Assembly: GCA_002503845.1 (NCBI GenBank)
Contig: DASO01000012.1
Coordinates: 1-19,833, forward strand
DNA: 19,833 nucleotides
DNA from: Euryarchaeota archaeon UBA24
Lineage (GTDB): Archaea; Halobacteriota; Halobacteria; Halobacteriales; Hikarchaeaceae
Reading direction: 5' to 3'
Below are positions 501-13,970 of this stretch, piece by piece. Below the pieces are notes generated by a model, which was not told the DNA's origin, did no database searches, and saw nothing but the letters and a program-made list of their open reading frames with translations. The position numbers were made by a program, and so were the translations under genes. The first letter of the stretch is position 1, and each line of letters opens with the position of its first letter.

Positions 501-3418
<2,918 letters not shown>

Positions 3419-3570: not shown

Positions 3571-3796
3571 TTAAGGCGGCCATAGTGGCGGGGAAACTCC
3601 CGTACCCATCCCGAACACGGAAGATAAGCCCGCCTACGTTCCCTTGAGTACTGGAGTGCGCGAGCCTCTGGGAAATCCGGCCCGAAAGGGTGATTCGGTT
3701 ATGTACTGAGGGGTGTAAGATTAGTACGTGCTGGGTTCGTCCCGGCGGAAGGTCAAGCGCCCTGTCGACGTATATAATTGGTCGTTCGCTGCCTTT
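3571..3796 (+). rRNA. 5S rRNA with an internal ~104-nt insertion
   Basis: The 5' part is classic haloarchaeal 5S: TTAAGGCGGCCATAG at 3571, CCCATCCCGAACACGGAAGA near 3606 and GTGCGCGAGCCTCTGGGAAA up to about 3675. After AAATCCGG (3673-3680), where the closing strand of helix I should follow, the sequence departs. The expected strand is found only at 3788-3795, where GCTGCCTT pairs with AAGGCGGC (3573-3580) in 8 bp with one wobble, preceded by the usual TTC. The intervening ~104 nt fold on their own. Total length is ~226 nt against ~122 normally. Halococcus morrhuae 5S is known to be 231 nt with a 108-nt insertion near this place. The exact insertion edges and pairing of the helix IV/V side are uncertain. 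Confidence 0.82.
3681..3784 (+). other. Insertion inside 5S rRNA
   Basis: The inserted segment is structured. CCC-GAAA-GGG at 3681-3690 makes a GNRA tetraloop hairpin, flanked by AATC/GATT. A longer arm is formed by ATTA (3720-3723) with TAAT (3775-3778), then TACGT (3725-3729) with ACGTA (3768-3772), enclosing CTGGG-TTCGT-CCCGG (3731-3745). CCCTT at 3641-3645 could alternatively pair with AAGGG at 3686-3690, so the junction with the 5S core is not settled. No open frame or mobile-element hallmark is seen. Confidence 0.7.
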
Positions 3797-3818
3797 CCAT
3801 TCATATTTCCATACTTAT

Positions 3819-3891: not shown

Positions 3892-3963
3892 GCATAGGTG
3901 GCAGAGTGGCTACGCGTCCGCCTGCAGAGCGGATATACGCCGGTTCGAATCCGGCCCTATGCT
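3892..3963 (+). tRNA. tRNA-Cys (anticodon GCA)
   Basis: The acceptor GCATAGG (3892-3898) pairs with CCTATGC (3956-3962), and the discriminator is T3963, the U73 identity base of tRNA-Cys. The anticodon stem TCCGC/GCGGA holds anticodon GCA at 3924-3926. The T-arm is CCGG-TTCGAAT-CCGG. A tRNA-Cys directly after 5S is the usual haloarchaeal operon tail. Confidence 0.97.
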
Positions 3964-4068: not shown

Positions 4069-4350
4069 ATGAAGTTCTTATCAACTTTTAAAATCACCAA
4101 AGGATTTGATACCTGGCTACAAATGTACAAAGAGATTGAACCCGACTTAGATGAATTAGGAATAAAAGTACTATGGGCCGGAACCAATTCCGACGAAACA
4201 AAAGTCTACGACGTTACAGAAGTAAAAGATCCATCAAAATTTGAGATACTAACAAAACGAGAAGATATCACAAAAAAGAGAATTGATGCTGGAGTCGAAT
4301 TGGAAAGTCAAGAAGTAATAGAGACTATATCTGAAGACTATTGGGCATAA
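4069..4350 (+). CDS. Small ABM-like protein, DUF3764-like, function unknown
   Basis: 93 residues, soluble, no signal peptide, lysine- and glutamate-rich. The order of motifs (FKITKGFDTWLQMYK at 7-21, GIKVLWAG at 31-38, TKVYDVTEVKDPSKFE at 44-59, GVELESQEVIET at 75-86) resembles the DUF3764 / antibiotic-biosynthesis-monooxygenase-like ferredoxin fold known from marine cyanobacteria and other plankton. That assignment is from memory of the pattern and is moderate at best. No function can be named. The ATG is chosen because a TATA box lies 28 bases upstream. Its last 13 bases overlap the end of mocA on the opposite strand, so the two genes converge. Confidence 0.7.
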   Translation: MKFLSTFKITKGFDTWLQMYKEIEPDLDELGIKVLWAGTNSDETKVYDVTEVKDPSKFEILTKREDITKKRIDAGVELESQEVIETISEDYWA

Positions 4351-4943
4351 TCCTCCAAATCCTCTTCCGTGTCGATATCAAATAGGACTCCTCTGTCACC
4401 TGTTTCAACTAAGTCCATCCCAAGATCTTTGAGAATAGAATTCCCCCCTTCATCACCTCTTAATCCTTCTTTGAGCATTTCTATCACAGAAGCTCTAAAT
4501 AAAACAGGATTTCCTCTTCTCCCCTTGTAACCTGCAACAAAAACATCTCCAACTTTCTTATTCATCTGGACAGAAATGAGTTCATTGACACTACTACTTT
4601 TCACGAATGGCATATCTCCCAGAGCAAATACAATCGCATTTTCTTCCAAAACCGCATCAATTCCTCTTCGAACCGAAGTTGACTGGCCCATTTTCCAATC
4701 TTTATTGTATAAAAATTCCACGTCTAAGTGAGATAGTTCTTCTTCCACTCTTTCTGCTTGATATCCGGTAACTATTTTTACAGATTCCACCTCCGAATCA
4801 ATCAAATTTTGAGTGGCCATTTTGATTATAGATTGGCCTCCAATTTCAACAAAAAGCTTGTTTTCGGCCCCAAACCTAGAGCTGTCTCCTCCCGCTAATA
4901 ATACTCCCAAAACACCACTATTTTTTTGGTTCGGTATAGTCAT
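4338..4943 (-). CDS. mocA: Molybdenum cofactor cytidylyltransferase-like nucleotidyltransferase
   Basis: 201 residues of the MobA-like NTP transferase fold. Visible motifs are the nucleotide loop LLAGGDSSRFGAENKL (15-30), GQSTSVRRGI (86-95), the metal-binding GDMP (109-112), GNPVLF (144-149), GDEGG (163-167) and DIDT (189-192). MocA transfers CMP from CTP to molybdopterin, making the MCD form used by the xanthine dehydrogenase/CO dehydrogenase family. The neighbouring coxS/coxM/xdhC genes favour MocA over MobA, which makes the GTP-derived form. The start overlaps the moeA stop in an ATGA arrangement, so the two are surely one operon. No Shine-Dalgarno is seen; translational coupling is likely. 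Confidence 0.85.
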   Translation of the reverse strand: MTIPNQKNSGVLGVLLAGGDSSRFGAENKLFVEIGGQSIIKMATQNLIDSEVESVKIVTGYQAERVEEELSHLDVEFLYNKDWKMGQSTSVRRGIDAVLEENAIVFALGDMPFVKSSSVNELISVQMNKKVGDVFVAGYKGRRGNPVLFRASVIEMLKEGLRGDEGGNSILKDLGMDLVETGDRGVLFDIDTEEDLEDYAQ

Positions 4944-6130
4944 CTTATTGCTGTATATGGAACGACTTTGACAATACTTCCTTTTTCAACATCATTCACC
5001 ATTATAAAAAAACCATCCGCCCGAACTGCTCGGGTACTAGATGACAACACACTAGAGTTAAAAACACCATCAAATATCTGCAATGGAGAATCTATATGTC
5101 CCAGTGGCATCGCTAATTCTCCACCTTTTTCAAATACTACTGGGACAATGTATTCAAATCCCTCTCTACTTACTTTTACATCACGGGACAGTTCCATGTC
5201 AATTGTGGGGAATTCTTCCAATCCCACAAAAAATGGACGGAGAAACAACATCGAAACTGTGTGCGCTCCTATTGGTTTCCCCGGAACTGCAAAAATAACC
5301 GAGCTACCGATACTTGCCATTGTAATTGGTTTCCCCGGACGTACCAATACTCCCTGAAACTGAATCGTTCCAAGGTTTGAAATGGCCTTTACCACATAAT
5401 CCCTTTTTCCCACACTTGTCCCCCCTGTTGTTATTACAACATCGTATTTTTTTGAGAGCTCTTCAATCCGTTTCTCAACAATTTCATATTGATCCGGAAC
5501 GCTACCTTCGTACGTTGGGCGCCCGCCCCACGAAGTCACTAGTCCACCAAGCATGGCCGAATCTAGGTCTTCATGCTTTCCCTCATAAATTTCCGTTCCA
5601 GTAGCTAGAATTCCAACTGAGAATGGAGAATAAACTTTAACATTTTTATGCCCTATATCCAATAAAAGAATCGCATCTCTCGGCGCCAAACACGTTCCCT
5701 TTTCAAACAACTTTTCGCCAATTGAGACATTACTCCCCTTCGCATATACATACGTCCAACTAGGGATATCTTCCCCAATCAGATTTTTCCCATCCACGTT
5801 TGCATCTTCCCGTTTTAACACCGCATCCGCCCCTTCTGGGAGTGCAGCACCCGTGGATATTCTAACCGCTTGTCCCGGAGAAATAGATCCAGGAGAATCC
5901 TCTGGAAAAACAGAATCGATAAGTTCCAATGGATATTCATCACTCGAATTAATGGCATATCCATCCATGGTTGCATGATTCTGAGATGGTAAGTCTACTT
6001 TTGAAACGATGGATTCCGCTAAGATGCGGCCTCCGATCTCATCTACTGCAATCGATTCTGTAGGTCTATCTGAGAGTAAAAGTTTGCGCACAGAGGCTAT
6101 TTTTAAAATAGCTTGAGACCGAGTCACCAT
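4940..6130 (-). CDS. moeA: Molybdopterin molybdotransferase MoeA
   Basis: 396 residues with the chosen start; it inserts molybdate into adenylylated molybdopterin. Motifs are TMDGYAI (54-60), STGAALPEGADAVLKRED (92-109), ILATGTEIYEG (174-184), the MPT-binding TTGGTSVGKRDY (234-245), RPGKP (264-268) and VPGKPIGA (282-289). In the last motif the common PGNPVSA reads PGKPIGA. Two upstream in-frame starts exist (ATG 6145 and TTG 6154). I prefer ATG 6130 because AAATATTT lies about 27 bases upstream, predicting a leaderless transcript. First gene of a moeA-mocA operon, divergent from coxS. The protein lacks the extra C-terminal domain seen in some archaeal MoeA fusions. Confidence 0.92.
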   Translation of the reverse strand: MVTRSQAILKIASVRKLLLSDRPTESIAVDEIGGRILAESIVSKVDLPSQNHATMDGYAINSSDEYPLELIDSVFPEDSPGSISPGQAVRISTGAALPEGADAVLKREDANVDGKNLIGEDIPSWTYVYAKGSNVSIGEKLFEKGTCLAPRDAILLLDIGHKNVKVYSPFSVGILATGTEIYEGKHEDLDSAMLGGLVTSWGGRPTYEGSVPDQYEIVEKRIEELSKKYDVVITTGGTSVGKRDYVVKAISNLGTIQFQGVLVRPGKPITMASIGSSVIFAVPGKPIGAHTVSMLFLRPFFVGLEEFPTIDMELSRDVKVSREGFEYIVPVVFEKGGELAMPLGHIDSPLQIFDGVFNSSVLSSSTRAVRADGFFIMVNDVEKGSIVKVVPYTAIR

Positions 6131-6148
6131 TTTTTGATTGGACATATT

Positions 6149-6167
6149 CTTCAAATATTTCTTGAAG
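6149..6167 (-). promoter_or_regulatory. moeA promoter: TATA box inside an inverted repeat
   Basis: CTTCAA (6149-6154) and TTGAAG (6162-6167) form a perfect 6-bp inverted repeat with a 7-base spacer. The palindromic TATA-like AAATATTT (6153-6160) sits across it, about 27 bases before ATG 6130. A protein bound to the repeat would block TBP, so this is a candidate operator for the moeA-mocA operon. Confidence 0.5.
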
Positions 6168-6201
6168 TCCTACCAAAAAACTCTTGACGGTATGTTCTCT
6201 G

Positions 6202-6210
6202 AATATATAT
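6202..6210 (+). promoter_or_regulatory. TATA-like element before coxS
   Basis: AATATATAT is the strongest TATA-like run upstream of coxS, but its centre is only ~18 bases from the ATG. That is too close for a leaderless start at 6224, so transcription may begin just inside, or another box is used. Recorded as a candidate only. Confidence 0.3.
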
Positions 6211-6223
6211 ATGGTGAAAAAAT

Positions 6224-6718
6224 ATGAGTGAGCACGATATAACCCTAACCGTCAATAATACTGAACACAAGTTGGTTATTGAATCAAGGAGACTTCTAAT
6301 ACATACACTCCGGGACGAGTTGGGCTATACCGGTCCAAATGTGGGATGTGAATCTAGCCTTTGCGGTGCCTGCACGATCCATCTCAATGGATCTGCAGTC
6401 AAATCCTGTACAATCTTAGCAGTACAAGCTAACAACGCAGATATAACAACGGTCGAAGGTTTAGCCCAACATGGAACCTTACACCCCATCCAATCAAGCT
6501 TCCAAGAAGAACATGGCCTCCAATGTGGATATTGCACCCCTGGAATGATGATGACTGCACTGGATTTCCTCAAACACCATCCTGACCCCTCCCGCGATGA
6601 AATACGTGAGGGCCTAGAAGGAAACCTTTGCCGTTGCACTGGTTATCACAATATAGTCAACGCAGTTGAATCTACTGCAAAGAAACTCGCCGAAATTAGT
6701 TCTGGAGGGTCTGCATAA
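6224..6718 (+). CDS. coxS: Xanthine dehydrogenase/CO dehydrogenase-family [2Fe-2S] subunit
   Basis: 164 residues, the normal length of the small iron-sulfur subunit of molybdenum hydroxylases. The N-terminal ferredoxin-like domain has C42, C47, C50 and C62 (motif GCESSLCGACTIHLNG, 41-56). The C-terminal helical domain has C101, C104, C136 and C138 (QCGYCTPGMM and LCRCTGYHNI). Together they hold the two [2Fe-2S] clusters that pass electrons from the molybdenum site to FAD. It is translationally coupled to the FAD subunit (TAATG overlap). The symbol names the family; the substrate (CO, purine, aldehyde or other) cannot be told from this subunit. Confidence 0.93.
   Translation: MSEHDITLTVNNTEHKLVIESRRLLIHTLRDELGYTGPNVGCESSLCGACTIHLNGSAVKSCTILAVQANNADITTVEGLAQHGTLHPIQSSFQEEHGLQCGYCTPGMMMTALDFLKHHPDPSRDEIREGLEGNLCRCTGYHNIVNAVESTAKKLAEISSGGSA
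6702..6709 (+). promoter_or_regulatory. Shine-Dalgarno for coxM
   Basis: CTGGAGGG contains GGAGG, complementary to the anti-Shine-Dalgarno CACCTCCT at 38-45, about nine bases before the coxM ATG. Internal operon genes with such sites contrast with the leaderless first genes. Confidence 0.6.
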
Positions 6719-7593
6719 TGTACCCCACACATTTCGATTATTACCAGGCGAAAACCCTATCTGAGTTATTTGATTTACTCTCTGAACATGGTGAAGAAAT
6801 GATTGAATTCCTCGCAGGTGGGCATAGCCTATTACCTATGATGAAAACTGGATTGGCATCTCCAGATATTTTGATAGACCTGAACAACATCGAAGAACTC
6901 CATGGGATTGAACAGAATGAAACCACAACTTGTATTGGCGCCATGGAGCACTACTCTGATATTTCTAGAAATAACATTGTTAAAACCAATTGCCCCGTAC
7001 TTGCAGAGGCAGTCAGTCTAGTTGGAGATATTCAAGTTAGGAATCGAGGAACTCTTGGTGGGAACCTAGCACACAACGATCCCGCAAGCGATCCCCCTGC
7101 TGCAATATTGGCATCCCAAGCAACCTTACACGTTCACGGACCCAATGGAAAACGAACGATCAAAGAAGATGATTTTTTCACTGGCTTATATGAAACATCA
7201 CTCGAAGAAGACGAAATATTGACCAAAATAGAAATCCAAAATATAGAAAATGGTGCAGGCTCTTACCTTAAAAAACCAAGCCCGTCCTCTGGATATGCTA
7301 TGATTGGAACTGCAGTAGTTTTACACTCCACCGATGGGATCATCGATACCGCAAGAGTGGCAGTAATTGGCGCTGTAGATCATGCTACACGTCTCACCGG
7401 AGTCGAAGATGCTTTAGTTGGTTCTCCTGCAACACACGAGTCCGCGATTAGTGCTGCAGAGCATGCTCTAGAAGGTATTGAAGATTATATGGTAATGGAA
7501 GATCTACAAGCCTCAGCAGAATACCGGGAACATTTGATAGGCGTGTATGCAAAAAGGGCTACAATGGCGGCAATAGACAATTTACCAAAATAA
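6718..7593 (+). CDS. coxM: Xanthine dehydrogenase/CO dehydrogenase-family FAD subunit
   Basis: 291 residues, typical of the medium subunit. The two FAD-binding motifs are clear: AGGHSLLPMMK (33-43) with the following LIDLNNI, and RGTLGGNLAHNDPASDPP (110-127). The C-terminal CO dehydrogenase flavoprotein domain follows. It receives electrons from the [2Fe-2S] subunit. The ATG overlaps the coxS stop by one base. The gene for the catalytic large subunit, which usually sits beside coxS and coxM, does not follow: the next gene is xdhC after a 69-base gap. Confidence 0.93.
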   Translation: MYPTHFDYYQAKTLSELFDLLSEHGEEMIEFLAGGHSLLPMMKTGLASPDILIDLNNIEELHGIEQNETTTCIGAMEHYSDISRNNIVKTNCPVLAEAVSLVGDIQVRNRGTLGGNLAHNDPASDPPAAILASQATLHVHGPNGKRTIKEDDFFTGLYETSLEEDEILTKIEIQNIENGAGSYLKKPSPSSGYAMIGTAVVLHSTDGIIDTARVAVIGAVDHATRLTGVEDALVGSPATHESAISAAEHALEGIEDYMVMEDLQASAEYREHLIGVYAKRATMAAIDNLPK

Positions 7594-7662
7594 CACGTTT
7601 CCTCTCTCATTCAGCTACACTCTCCGAAAGCGATACAGCTCTACAAAACATTTGTAATAACA

Positions 7663-8778
7663 ATGAACGATCAAGATTGGGGTGCCCCAGAATCGGAAAT
7701 TATAGAAACTATTCGAAGAGTTCAAAAATCAGATTCTCAGGCAGTTATAGCTCATATTGTAAGCGTAGAAGGCAGCGCATACAGGCGCCCCGGGGCAAAA
7801 ATGGTTGTATCTGAAAATAGAGTTGGTATCGGGAACATCACTGCCGGATGCTTAGAAGGAGAAGTACTCGATATAGCATCCAAAGTCTTAGAAACTGGAA
7901 AGCCCCTTATTCAAACCTACGATCTAATGCAAGATCGGGATGATATATGGGGATTAGGTGTGGGCTGCAATGGAGTCATTGACATATTACTCGAACAAAT
8001 AGATTCCTCCTATCAACCTATTTTAGACTCACTAGATCAAGGAAGGCCAATTGGAGTTGTAACTGCACTGTCCGGAGATGTTCCTATCGGGACTAAAGCG
8101 TATTATGATGAAGAGACTGGGTTTAACACCTCTGAGAATTTCCCAGATTGGCTCTTAGATGAATTGAATTCAATTCTGCCTCCTTTGTTCAAAAAAGGCA
8201 AATCAATTTCAATCGATATTGAATCCCAGGGTGGCCAAGCAAGAGTCTTCATTGATAGCATCCTCCCAATTCCAAAACTCATTATAGTTGGAAATGGAAA
8301 CGATGTCGCCCCTGTTGTAGATGTAGCAAAGATAAACGGTTTCTCAGTCAGCATAATCAGCTTTCGAAAAGGAATTGACATAGCTAAAAAATTCCCCAAT
8401 GCAGACCATTTCTATCATTCCTCTCCTTCTTCTATCACTTCCATTCTTGAATTCAACAATAACACCTATGTTGTAATTATGACTCATAATTTCATTGAAG
8501 ACCGGCTATCTCTTGAACAACTTCTCTCCACTCCTGTAAGTTATATCGGTCTACTAGGGCCCCAAGAGAGATTCAAAGAAATGCTCTCTGAGTTTAAAGC
8601 AGAGGGGAAAAACCTGACTTCCCACACTGATAGAATTTACACACCCATTGGTCTTGATATCGGTGGTGGTTCTCCTTATCAAATAGCCACAAGTATCATT
8701 TCCGAAATACTTTCTGTACACAACCACCGGCCACCAAGACATTTACGCGACCGAGAAGGTCCTATCCACGATAGATAG
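7663..8778 (+). CDS. xdhC: XdhC/CoxI-family molybdenum hydroxylase maturation factor
   Basis: 371 residues with both domains of the family. The N-terminal XdhC/CoxI domain contains VEGSAYRRPGAKMVV (35-49), AGCLEGEVL (61-69) and GLGVGCNG (97-104), with conserved C63 and C102. The C-terminal Rossmann domain starts near 206 with LIIVGNGND and continues with YVVIMTHNFIEDR (269-281), YIGLLGP (294-300) and GLDIGGGSP (330-338). Family members bind the molybdenum cofactor and help sulfurate and insert it into xanthine dehydrogenase-type enzymes. Its position downstream of coxS-coxM fits. A weak GATACA-like box ~28 bases before the ATG may give it its own start. Residues after ~355 form a short charged tail. 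Confidence 0.9.
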   Translation: MNDQDWGAPESEIIETIRRVQKSDSQAVIAHIVSVEGSAYRRPGAKMVVSENRVGIGNITAGCLEGEVLDIASKVLETGKPLIQTYDLMQDRDDIWGLGVGCNGVIDILLEQIDSSYQPILDSLDQGRPIGVVTALSGDVPIGTKAYYDEETGFNTSENFPDWLLDELNSILPPLFKKGKSISIDIESQGGQARVFIDSILPIPKLIIVGNGNDVAPVVDVAKINGFSVSIISFRKGIDIAKKFPNADHFYHSSPSSITSILEFNNNTYVVIMTHNFIEDRLSLEQLLSTPVSYIGLLGPQERFKEMLSEFKAEGKNLTSHTDRIYTPIGLDIGGGSPYQIATSIISEILSVHNHRPPRHLRDREGPIHDR

Positions 8779-13609: not shown

Positions 13610-13970
13610 GGTGACAGAGGAAGACCGGCCACCGCGGACCATCCGTGAGGAAAGTCCCCCCACCGGTCGTACAGGTGACCAGGTGCAAGCTTGGAGTGGG
13701 AGACCACTGGCTCTGAAACAGAAACGACACGTCTCCACCAGACCTATGAAACGAGCGAACCTCTCCCGTAAGGGTGAGGGAGTTAACCTCCTGAGGGTGG
13801 AAGGTGCCAGATATTTTCTGGACGTTAGATATTCTATCTAACTTGAGGATCGATGGAACGGTGAAACCTCACCGGTGCAAGCCCGTGCCGCAAAAGTAGT
13901 ACGACCAGGGCCCGGGTGCTTAGCCGAATGCCGGAGAAAAACAGAAGGGGGCTTACTCTCCTCAGCCACC
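13610..13970 (+). ncRNA. rnpB: RNase P RNA, archaeal type A
   Basis: About 361 nt, the catalytic RNA that matures tRNA 5' ends. Universal elements are present: GAGGAAAGTCC (13647-13657, CR-I) with the following C-run, GGTGCAAGCCCGTGCCGCAA near 13873 (CR-IV region), and ACAGAAGGGGGCTTA (13941-13955, CR-V). The P4 pseudoknot forms between AGTCCCCCC and GAAGGGGGCTT. The ends come from P1: GGTGACAGAGG (13610-13620) pairs with CCTCAGCCACC (13960-13970) in 9 of 11 positions. Short open frames across it on both strands are shadows. T-rich sequence follows at 13971-13982. Confidence 0.93.

Follow-up and report, generated by a model that had tools for sequence, protein, structure and literature searches.

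The stretch of DNA analysed here (19,833 nt; hereafter the window) carries near its start the tail of a typical euryarchaeal rRNA operon, consisting of a tRNA-Ala gene (152-225), the 23S rRNA gene on the forward strand (501-3417; RF02540, 2866 bits), the 5S rRNA gene of the same operon (about 3573-3795) and, downstream of it on the forward strand, a tRNA-Cys gene (3892-3963). The succession of 5S and tRNA-Cys genes recurs in one operon of a related genome (G003; loci L031/L150) as well as in L087 and L052; L076 and L070 yielded no tRNA. The initial annotation had labelled the sequence haloarchaeal, which does not hold in the narrow sense: the host belongs to Marine Group IV (Hikarchaeia), its 23S rRNA being 98.6% identical to that of G003, a metagenome-assembled genome (MAG) of the same genus. 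'Marine Group IV archaeon HikBin5' and 'Halobacteriales archaeon isolate PW3.metabat2.160' belong to this genus. The GC content of the window without its rRNA genes is 42.2%; Marine Group IV is described as having genomes of ~1.2 Mb with 40-42% GC, and as exclusively marine and sister to the Haloarchaea (PMC7599335).

The 5S core on the forward strand is canonical up to G3679, starting with the 5' strand of helix I (3573-3580) and including loop E (5' part, 3573-3679; RF00001 and alignment), and resumes at G3784 after 104 nt, where G3784 and TTC lead into the helix I 3' strand at 3788-3795 (GCTGCCTT; 3' part, 3784-3795), which pairs with 3573-3580 in 8 bp including one G-U. The expansion segment between these two core residues spans exactly 3680-3783, as determined by aligning the gene with 34 further expanded 5S sequences, by the insert lengths and by the match of an insert model described below. 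The initial annotation was hence accurate in its overall coordinates (3571-3796), in ending the 5' core at about 3680, in proposing a 104-nt insertion and in recognizing the closing strand of helix I after TTC. The insertion site between G3679 and G3784 lies in helix V. Searching with the 5S family model RF00001, a check that had been suggested at that stage, recovered the gene in part only (3572-3686, 69.2 bits), with a false end inside the insert and a badly mismatched helix I, which is the type of mis-annotation reported for expanded archaeal 5S genes by Stepanov & Fox 2021 (PMC7812874). Furthermore, helix I of the window ends in TCGCTGCC and the Halobacteria pattern given in the same paper ends in TCGCCGCC, so that this pattern would miss the window gene (PMC7812874). 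A covariance model of the insert, R1, matches 3666-3793 with 105.8 bits, the window being among the sequences from which R1 was built.

We used R1 to scan genomes at the level of the order, the phylum and the class, with stricter filters for large sets. Within the order, the insert was detected in 41 of 392 genomes, representing 12 of 95 genera and six family codes; no carrier outside the order was found in the phylum draw (matches in 6 of 392 genomes) or the class draw (9 of 145), both of which overlap the order scan and each other. The carriers include Halococcus, Halalkalicoccus, Halomarina and Halodesulfurarchaeum, and also Halocatena, 'Actinarchaeum', Halorutilus and the Ods01/Ods02 MAGs, which lie outside the four genera listed in PMC7812874. 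Halorutilus (G012) and Ods01 (G038) share a genus code and are therefore treated together as Ordosarchaeia. The initial annotation had described the Halococcus insertion as long thought almost unique, a view that was already outdated, as inserts of this type were known in 15 archaeal strains from the four genera (PMC7812874). The present scan adds the marine Marine Group IV (Hikarchaeia) and Halorutilus/Ordosarchaeia to the groups with a Halococcus-type 5S arm; in the open-access literature, to which our search was confined, no report of such an insert turned up for Hikarchaeia, Halorutilus, Halocatena or Actinarchaeum. In the genus nearest to the window, the insert was present in two of the four genomes examined (G003 and G002), the expanded 5S of G002 being cut at a contig end and missed by RF00001. 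In the other two Hikarchaeia genomes, G001 (71% complete) and G004 (58% complete), neither the insert nor any 5S was found, which counts against the explanation favoured below.

The position of the true 3' end of the gene is further supported by a flanking motif, CA[CT]TCAT. In 39 of 42 carriers, helix I is followed by this motif (the three Ordosarchaeia rows lack it); in the window it occurs at 3798 and has no occurrence within 3680-3784. A wider form of this pattern, in which TATTCAT is also permitted, flanks 24 of 28 normal 5S genes. Three Ordosarchaeia rows moreover carry a compensatory A-U pair in helix I (columns 12-236), where the other rows have G-C. Archaeal rRNA genes can contain introns, and the 104 nt might accordingly be an intron or a processed intervening sequence that the mature 5S either lacks or contains in cut form. 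We consider this very improbable, since the junctions lack a bulge-helix-bulge (a 4-bp helix between two 3-nt bulges; in two junction phases, the inner pairs formed were 3/4 and 2/4 and the outer pairs 0/4 and 1/4), and since the homologous insert of Halococcus morrhuae is retained, having been read directly in a 231-nt 5S and seen as density on the ribosome (PMC7812874, PMC7530397).

There is also scant room for a pseudogene or a mis-assembly with a normal 5S elsewhere in the genome. Such a reading could draw on G003, in which one archaeal expanded 5S is accompanied by a second RF00001 match (L032, contig C103, 1553-1670); this match, however, looks bacterial by eye, lies on a separate short contig and is probably bin contamination. 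Three Hikarchaeia assemblies (the window, G003 and G002) share the insert with compensating differences. In addition, across a set of 59 genomes, each of the 15 carriers outside the Hikarchaeia has a single RF00001 match, which is the expanded gene, and the expanded 5S therefore most likely serves the ribosome in these organisms.

The insert folds by itself, as had been noted from the window alone, with a predicted energy of -41.4 kcal/mol compared with a shuffle mean of -29.6 (z -3.4), and none of 200 shuffles was as good. To this fold belong the GAAA tetraloop hairpin anticipated by the initial annotation (GCCC-GAAA-GGGU, 3680-3691, forward strand) and a long arm, which had been placed at 3720-3778; the arm is present, but its extent is larger, running from about 3700 to 3776 with a distal hairpin at 3723-3750. 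Pairing was evaluated in a MAFFT alignment of 35 of the 42 matched genes. Over the 28 insert pairs, 96.4% of the cells are paired and 18 pairs show two-sided change, in a structure that was drawn from the same sequences as those tested and with counts that refer to related sequences rather than to independent events. The covariation score was 0.528, compared with 0.199 in shuffles and at most 0.116 for slid structures. In the short arm, 20 sequences show two-sided changes at pair 115-130, and 16 at pair 117-128. In the long arm, the proximal stem P2 (3700-3706 with 3770-3776) has 86.9% of its cells paired across the 35 rows, its outermost two pairs failing in 8 and 18 of the rows, and stem P3 (3710-3715 with 3758-3763) has all cells paired, with two-sided changes in four of its six pairs; both fold and covariation support the 3' strands of these stems (3758-3776, forward strand). 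Two-sided changes in P2 even occur inside the Hikarchaeia genus, between the window and L031 at 3705-3771 and between the window and L087 at 3704-3772. The alignment establishes that the insert stems are maintained through compensatory change. The wider sample extends the covariation support beyond the narrower set of Stepanov & Fox (PMC7812874). Length varies little as well: inserts measure 104-112 nt in the 33 full rows (108 in 13 of them, 104 in the window), and the 5' side of the long arm is 31 nt long in 34 of 35 rows. Searched against Rfam for resemblance to another family, the insert matched only RF00001, apart from a chance match at E 4.8.

The original reference for the expansion segment of the Halococcus morrhuae type is reportedly Luehrsen 1981. 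The window insert shares with it the insertion point, the length class (104 versus 108 nt), a short hairpin followed by a long unbranched arm with internal loops, and a distal stem-loop that is the most conserved part, as it is in our set. The junction, which the initial annotation had located in a similar place to that of Halococcus, is common to the rows of the alignment (columns 114/231), including L047, whose 5S is identical to that of L048 at the published coordinates of H. morrhuae DSM 1307, and it corresponds to the archaeal core position 104.1/105 used in Halococcus (PMC7812874). A 12-row alignment of the inserts revealed invariant motifs. The differences are that the window insert is 4 nt shorter, that its distal stem reads CGU/GCG rather than CAC/GUG, that its junction-side pairs are mismatched, and that its host is a member of Marine Group IV/Hikarchaeia and not of the four halophile genera listed in PMC7812874. 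The expansion segments of Thermoanaerobacterales and other bacteria also add a helical module to an intact 5S core, but at other insertion sites and with other structural types, such that they are not homologous by position (PMC7812874).

The initial annotation had left the choice between an independent and a related expansion undecided. Because site, sequence motifs and structure, including the same covarying helices, all coincide, the insert is related: comparative sequence evidence establishes its homology to the Halococcus morrhuae-type segment. Convergence on the Halococcus arrangement after an independent insertion might seem compatible with an overall insert identity of only ~52-65% to other lineages, but the junction is the same to the nucleotide, the distal hairpin is near-invariant and the helices follow in the same order, so that the shared motifs effectively refute convergence already and leave it a negligible probability.

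The distal hairpin (3723-3750, forward strand) comprises AGUA (3723-3726) opposite GAA (3748-3750), a stem at 3727-3735/3741-3747 and a UUCGU loop. Among 13 of the 35 rows, chosen as lineage representatives, its mean identity (0.919) is close to that of the 5S core (0.902), with far lower values in the short arm (0.669) and the outer stems (0.592). Of the 35 rows, 33 have AGTAC, 32 the opposite GGA and 31 the apical GGGTYCGTCCC; exceptions for AGTAC/GGA are L083 (AGCCC), L084 (AGTAG/CGACA) and two Ordosarchaeia rows with GGGAA. Bulged-G (loop E) motifs are marked by AGUA facing GA(A), and this signature together with flanking covariation (two-sided changes in one row at pair 167-187 and in three rows at pair 168-186) points to a putative bulged-G-like motif here. 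The likeness to the sarcin-ricin/loop E motif lies in AGUA opposite GA(A); the flanking C-G pair becomes G-C in L084, and the insert version belongs to an expansion segment, in whose distal arm it sits. A symmetric pairing scheme for the distal stem was rejected, as it left 89.3% of cells paired without covariation, versus 99.6% for the bulged-G version. A duplication of the 5S gene's own loop E arm was likewise rejected as the source of the hairpin (shuffle p 0.55-0.98 in four rows). Stepanov & Fox had singled out the distal stem-loop as the part with the highest conservation and as a candidate for a functional domain, and used covariation in folding; the word 'sarcin' is absent from the main text of that paper, and those of its 'loop E' passages that were consulted concern the 5S core (PMC7812874). 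Our analysis sharpens their remark on the conserved distal loop to 28 nt, a sequence constraint equal to that of the core and a putative bulged-G-like motif. Two natural variants stand apart: L083 (QH_7_66_36, 779-908) is an expanded 5S with AGCC in place of AGUA that keeps the arm, offering a natural test of the role of the motif, and L084 (G357, 958-1085) keeps the arm with a distal stem rewired by compensatory change (AGUAG...CGACA). The loss of AGUA in the one and the rewiring in the other count against the explanation favoured below.

The region next to the junction also differs in the Hikarchaeia. In all three of their rows, the helix between the junction and loop E opposes CCCUU (3641-3645) to AUCCG (3675-3679), with pyrimidine mismatches, whereas in the other 30 rows with letters the pair at columns 79-112 is kept in 30 and that at columns 78-113 in 26. 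CCCUU is complementary to AAGGG (3686-3690) of the short arm, making a local rearrangement possible in which these two segments would pair. These junction-side mismatches, too, count against the favoured explanation.

With respect to function, we propose that the gene would produce a 5S rRNA of ~223-227 nt bearing the 104-nt module, which would branch off the core next to loop E, at a multi-way junction, in the form of a short hairpin with a GNRA cap plus a long arm. The long arm may act as a length-constrained lever presenting the distal bulged-G hairpin at the central protuberance; its covarying stems would then be a spacer, and the near-invariant distal hairpin is probably the working part, a docking site for a candidate partner such as a ribosomal protein, an assembly factor or 23S RNA near helix 38. 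We know of no structure of a Hikarchaeia ribosome. In H. morrhuae, the insert was described as leaving a four-way junction and projecting from the 50S, with most of it flexible in the cryo-EM map and faint, possibly noise-level density towards helix 38 (Tirumalai 2020; PMC7530397). By homology to that 50S map, the window insert would protrude from the ribosome as well (PMC7530397). Mutating the distal hairpin in a tractable carrier makes the forty-year-old question of the function of the insert testable.

The history of the insert was considered on a 23S tree of 49 rows (10 of them outgroup), in which carriers make up 21 of 39 ingroup rows, compared with 41 of 392 genomes in the order scan; this choice of taxa, rich in carriers, favours ancestral presence in the reconstruction, and the 23S, being linked to the 5S, is not an independent species marker. 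Ordosarchaeia together with family f11 branch first in this tree, next Hikarchaeia and last the crown Haloarchaea, parts of which likewise carry the insert. The splits around the Ordosarchaeia group have good support, and support is weak for the branching of Hikarchaeia before the crown (56/87) and for several nodes within the crown. Published work places Hikarchaeia as sister of Haloarchaea and Ordosarchaeia deeper (PMC7599335, PMC10873845). On the carrier-enriched tree, unweighted parsimony counts 6 changes, weighting for rare gain gives 1 gain and 8 losses, and a two-state model assigns a probability of the expanded state of 0.88 to the node of Hikarchaeia and crown and of 0.48 to the deepest ingroup node. 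Insert distances correlate with 23S distances (Mantel r 0.715, p 0.00015; 11 of 21 carriers), and the Hikarchaeia inserts, at 0.35-0.48 from all others, are on average the most diverged.

The Halococcus-type insertion, so far described from four halophile genera, has been thought to move by transfer. Spread between lineages, as published, would fit the patchy distribution of carriers, and a minimum of 6 changes permits several gains. The Halococcus inserts nest inside those of f14 Halalkalicoccus, two groups that the 23S tree separates, and a grouping of Hikarchaeia with f3 lineages is not rejected by AU tests restricted to the insert (116 columns). The placements that these tests leave standing are those with Halomarina/Halocatena (p 0.33), Halomarina (0.36), g20 (0.11) and Halodesulfurarchaeum (0.07), only the grouping with Halalkalicoccus/Halococcus reaching p 0.049; both the insert tree and these tests have too few sites for a firm placement of Hikarchaeia. 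Beside Ordosarchaeia, moreover, family f11 has a normal 5S (L168/L040 of G014, in the family sister to Ordosarchaeia/Halorutilus on the 23S tree), which can be read either as a loss or as a sign of a separate gain in Ordosarchaeia. Against transfer, the insert distances track the 23S, and the high divergence of the Hikarchaeia inserts, combined with this correlation, argues against their being recent copies from any sampled lineage. In viral contigs, the one match to a pattern scan (L131) is by eye a coding stretch unrelated to 5S, and spread on viral contigs was rejected. Contact with saltern donors also seems unlikely for a group described as exclusively marine (PMC7599335). On balance, we regard transfer as a rather unlikely account.

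Carriers in the two deepest branches and insert divergence that tracks the 23S instead favour an ancient gain with repeated loss, and shift the likely origin to the base of the radiation. A single gain of the insert may have preceded or accompanied the Ordosarchaeia-Hikarchaeia-Haloarchaea radiation, followed by vertical inheritance and many losses, such that the arm probably predates the Haloarchaea. The ancestor of Hikarchaeia and Haloarchaea may already have been halophilic or halotolerant (PMC7599335), and Ordosarchaeia are hypersaline (PMC10873845), arguing against a salt-free origin of the insert; its retention in a lineage described as marine suggests that extreme salt is not needed for its upkeep. 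We find the overall account, of a homologous and retained arm with a single ancient gain, later losses and a lever-like role in presenting the distal hairpin, reasonably likely. Our judgement is evenly balanced on the bolder version, that the arm is a relic of the Ordosarchaeia-Hikarchaeia-Haloarchaea ancestor, lost repeatedly in the crown, whose distal hairpin is a genuine functional site at the central protuberance; if true, the arm has been kept even in streamlined (~1.2 Mb) marine genomes. A comparison of proteome acidity was dropped, as each locus offered too few ORFs, several of them probably spurious.

Elsewhere in the window, ORFs at 4341-8778 resemble, by eye, a molybdenum-cofactor/molybdenum hydroxylase cluster, and an archaeal RNase P RNA at 13613-13967 contains a 73-nt stretch in which 7 positions of the Rfam model are skipped and which may be another expanded arm.
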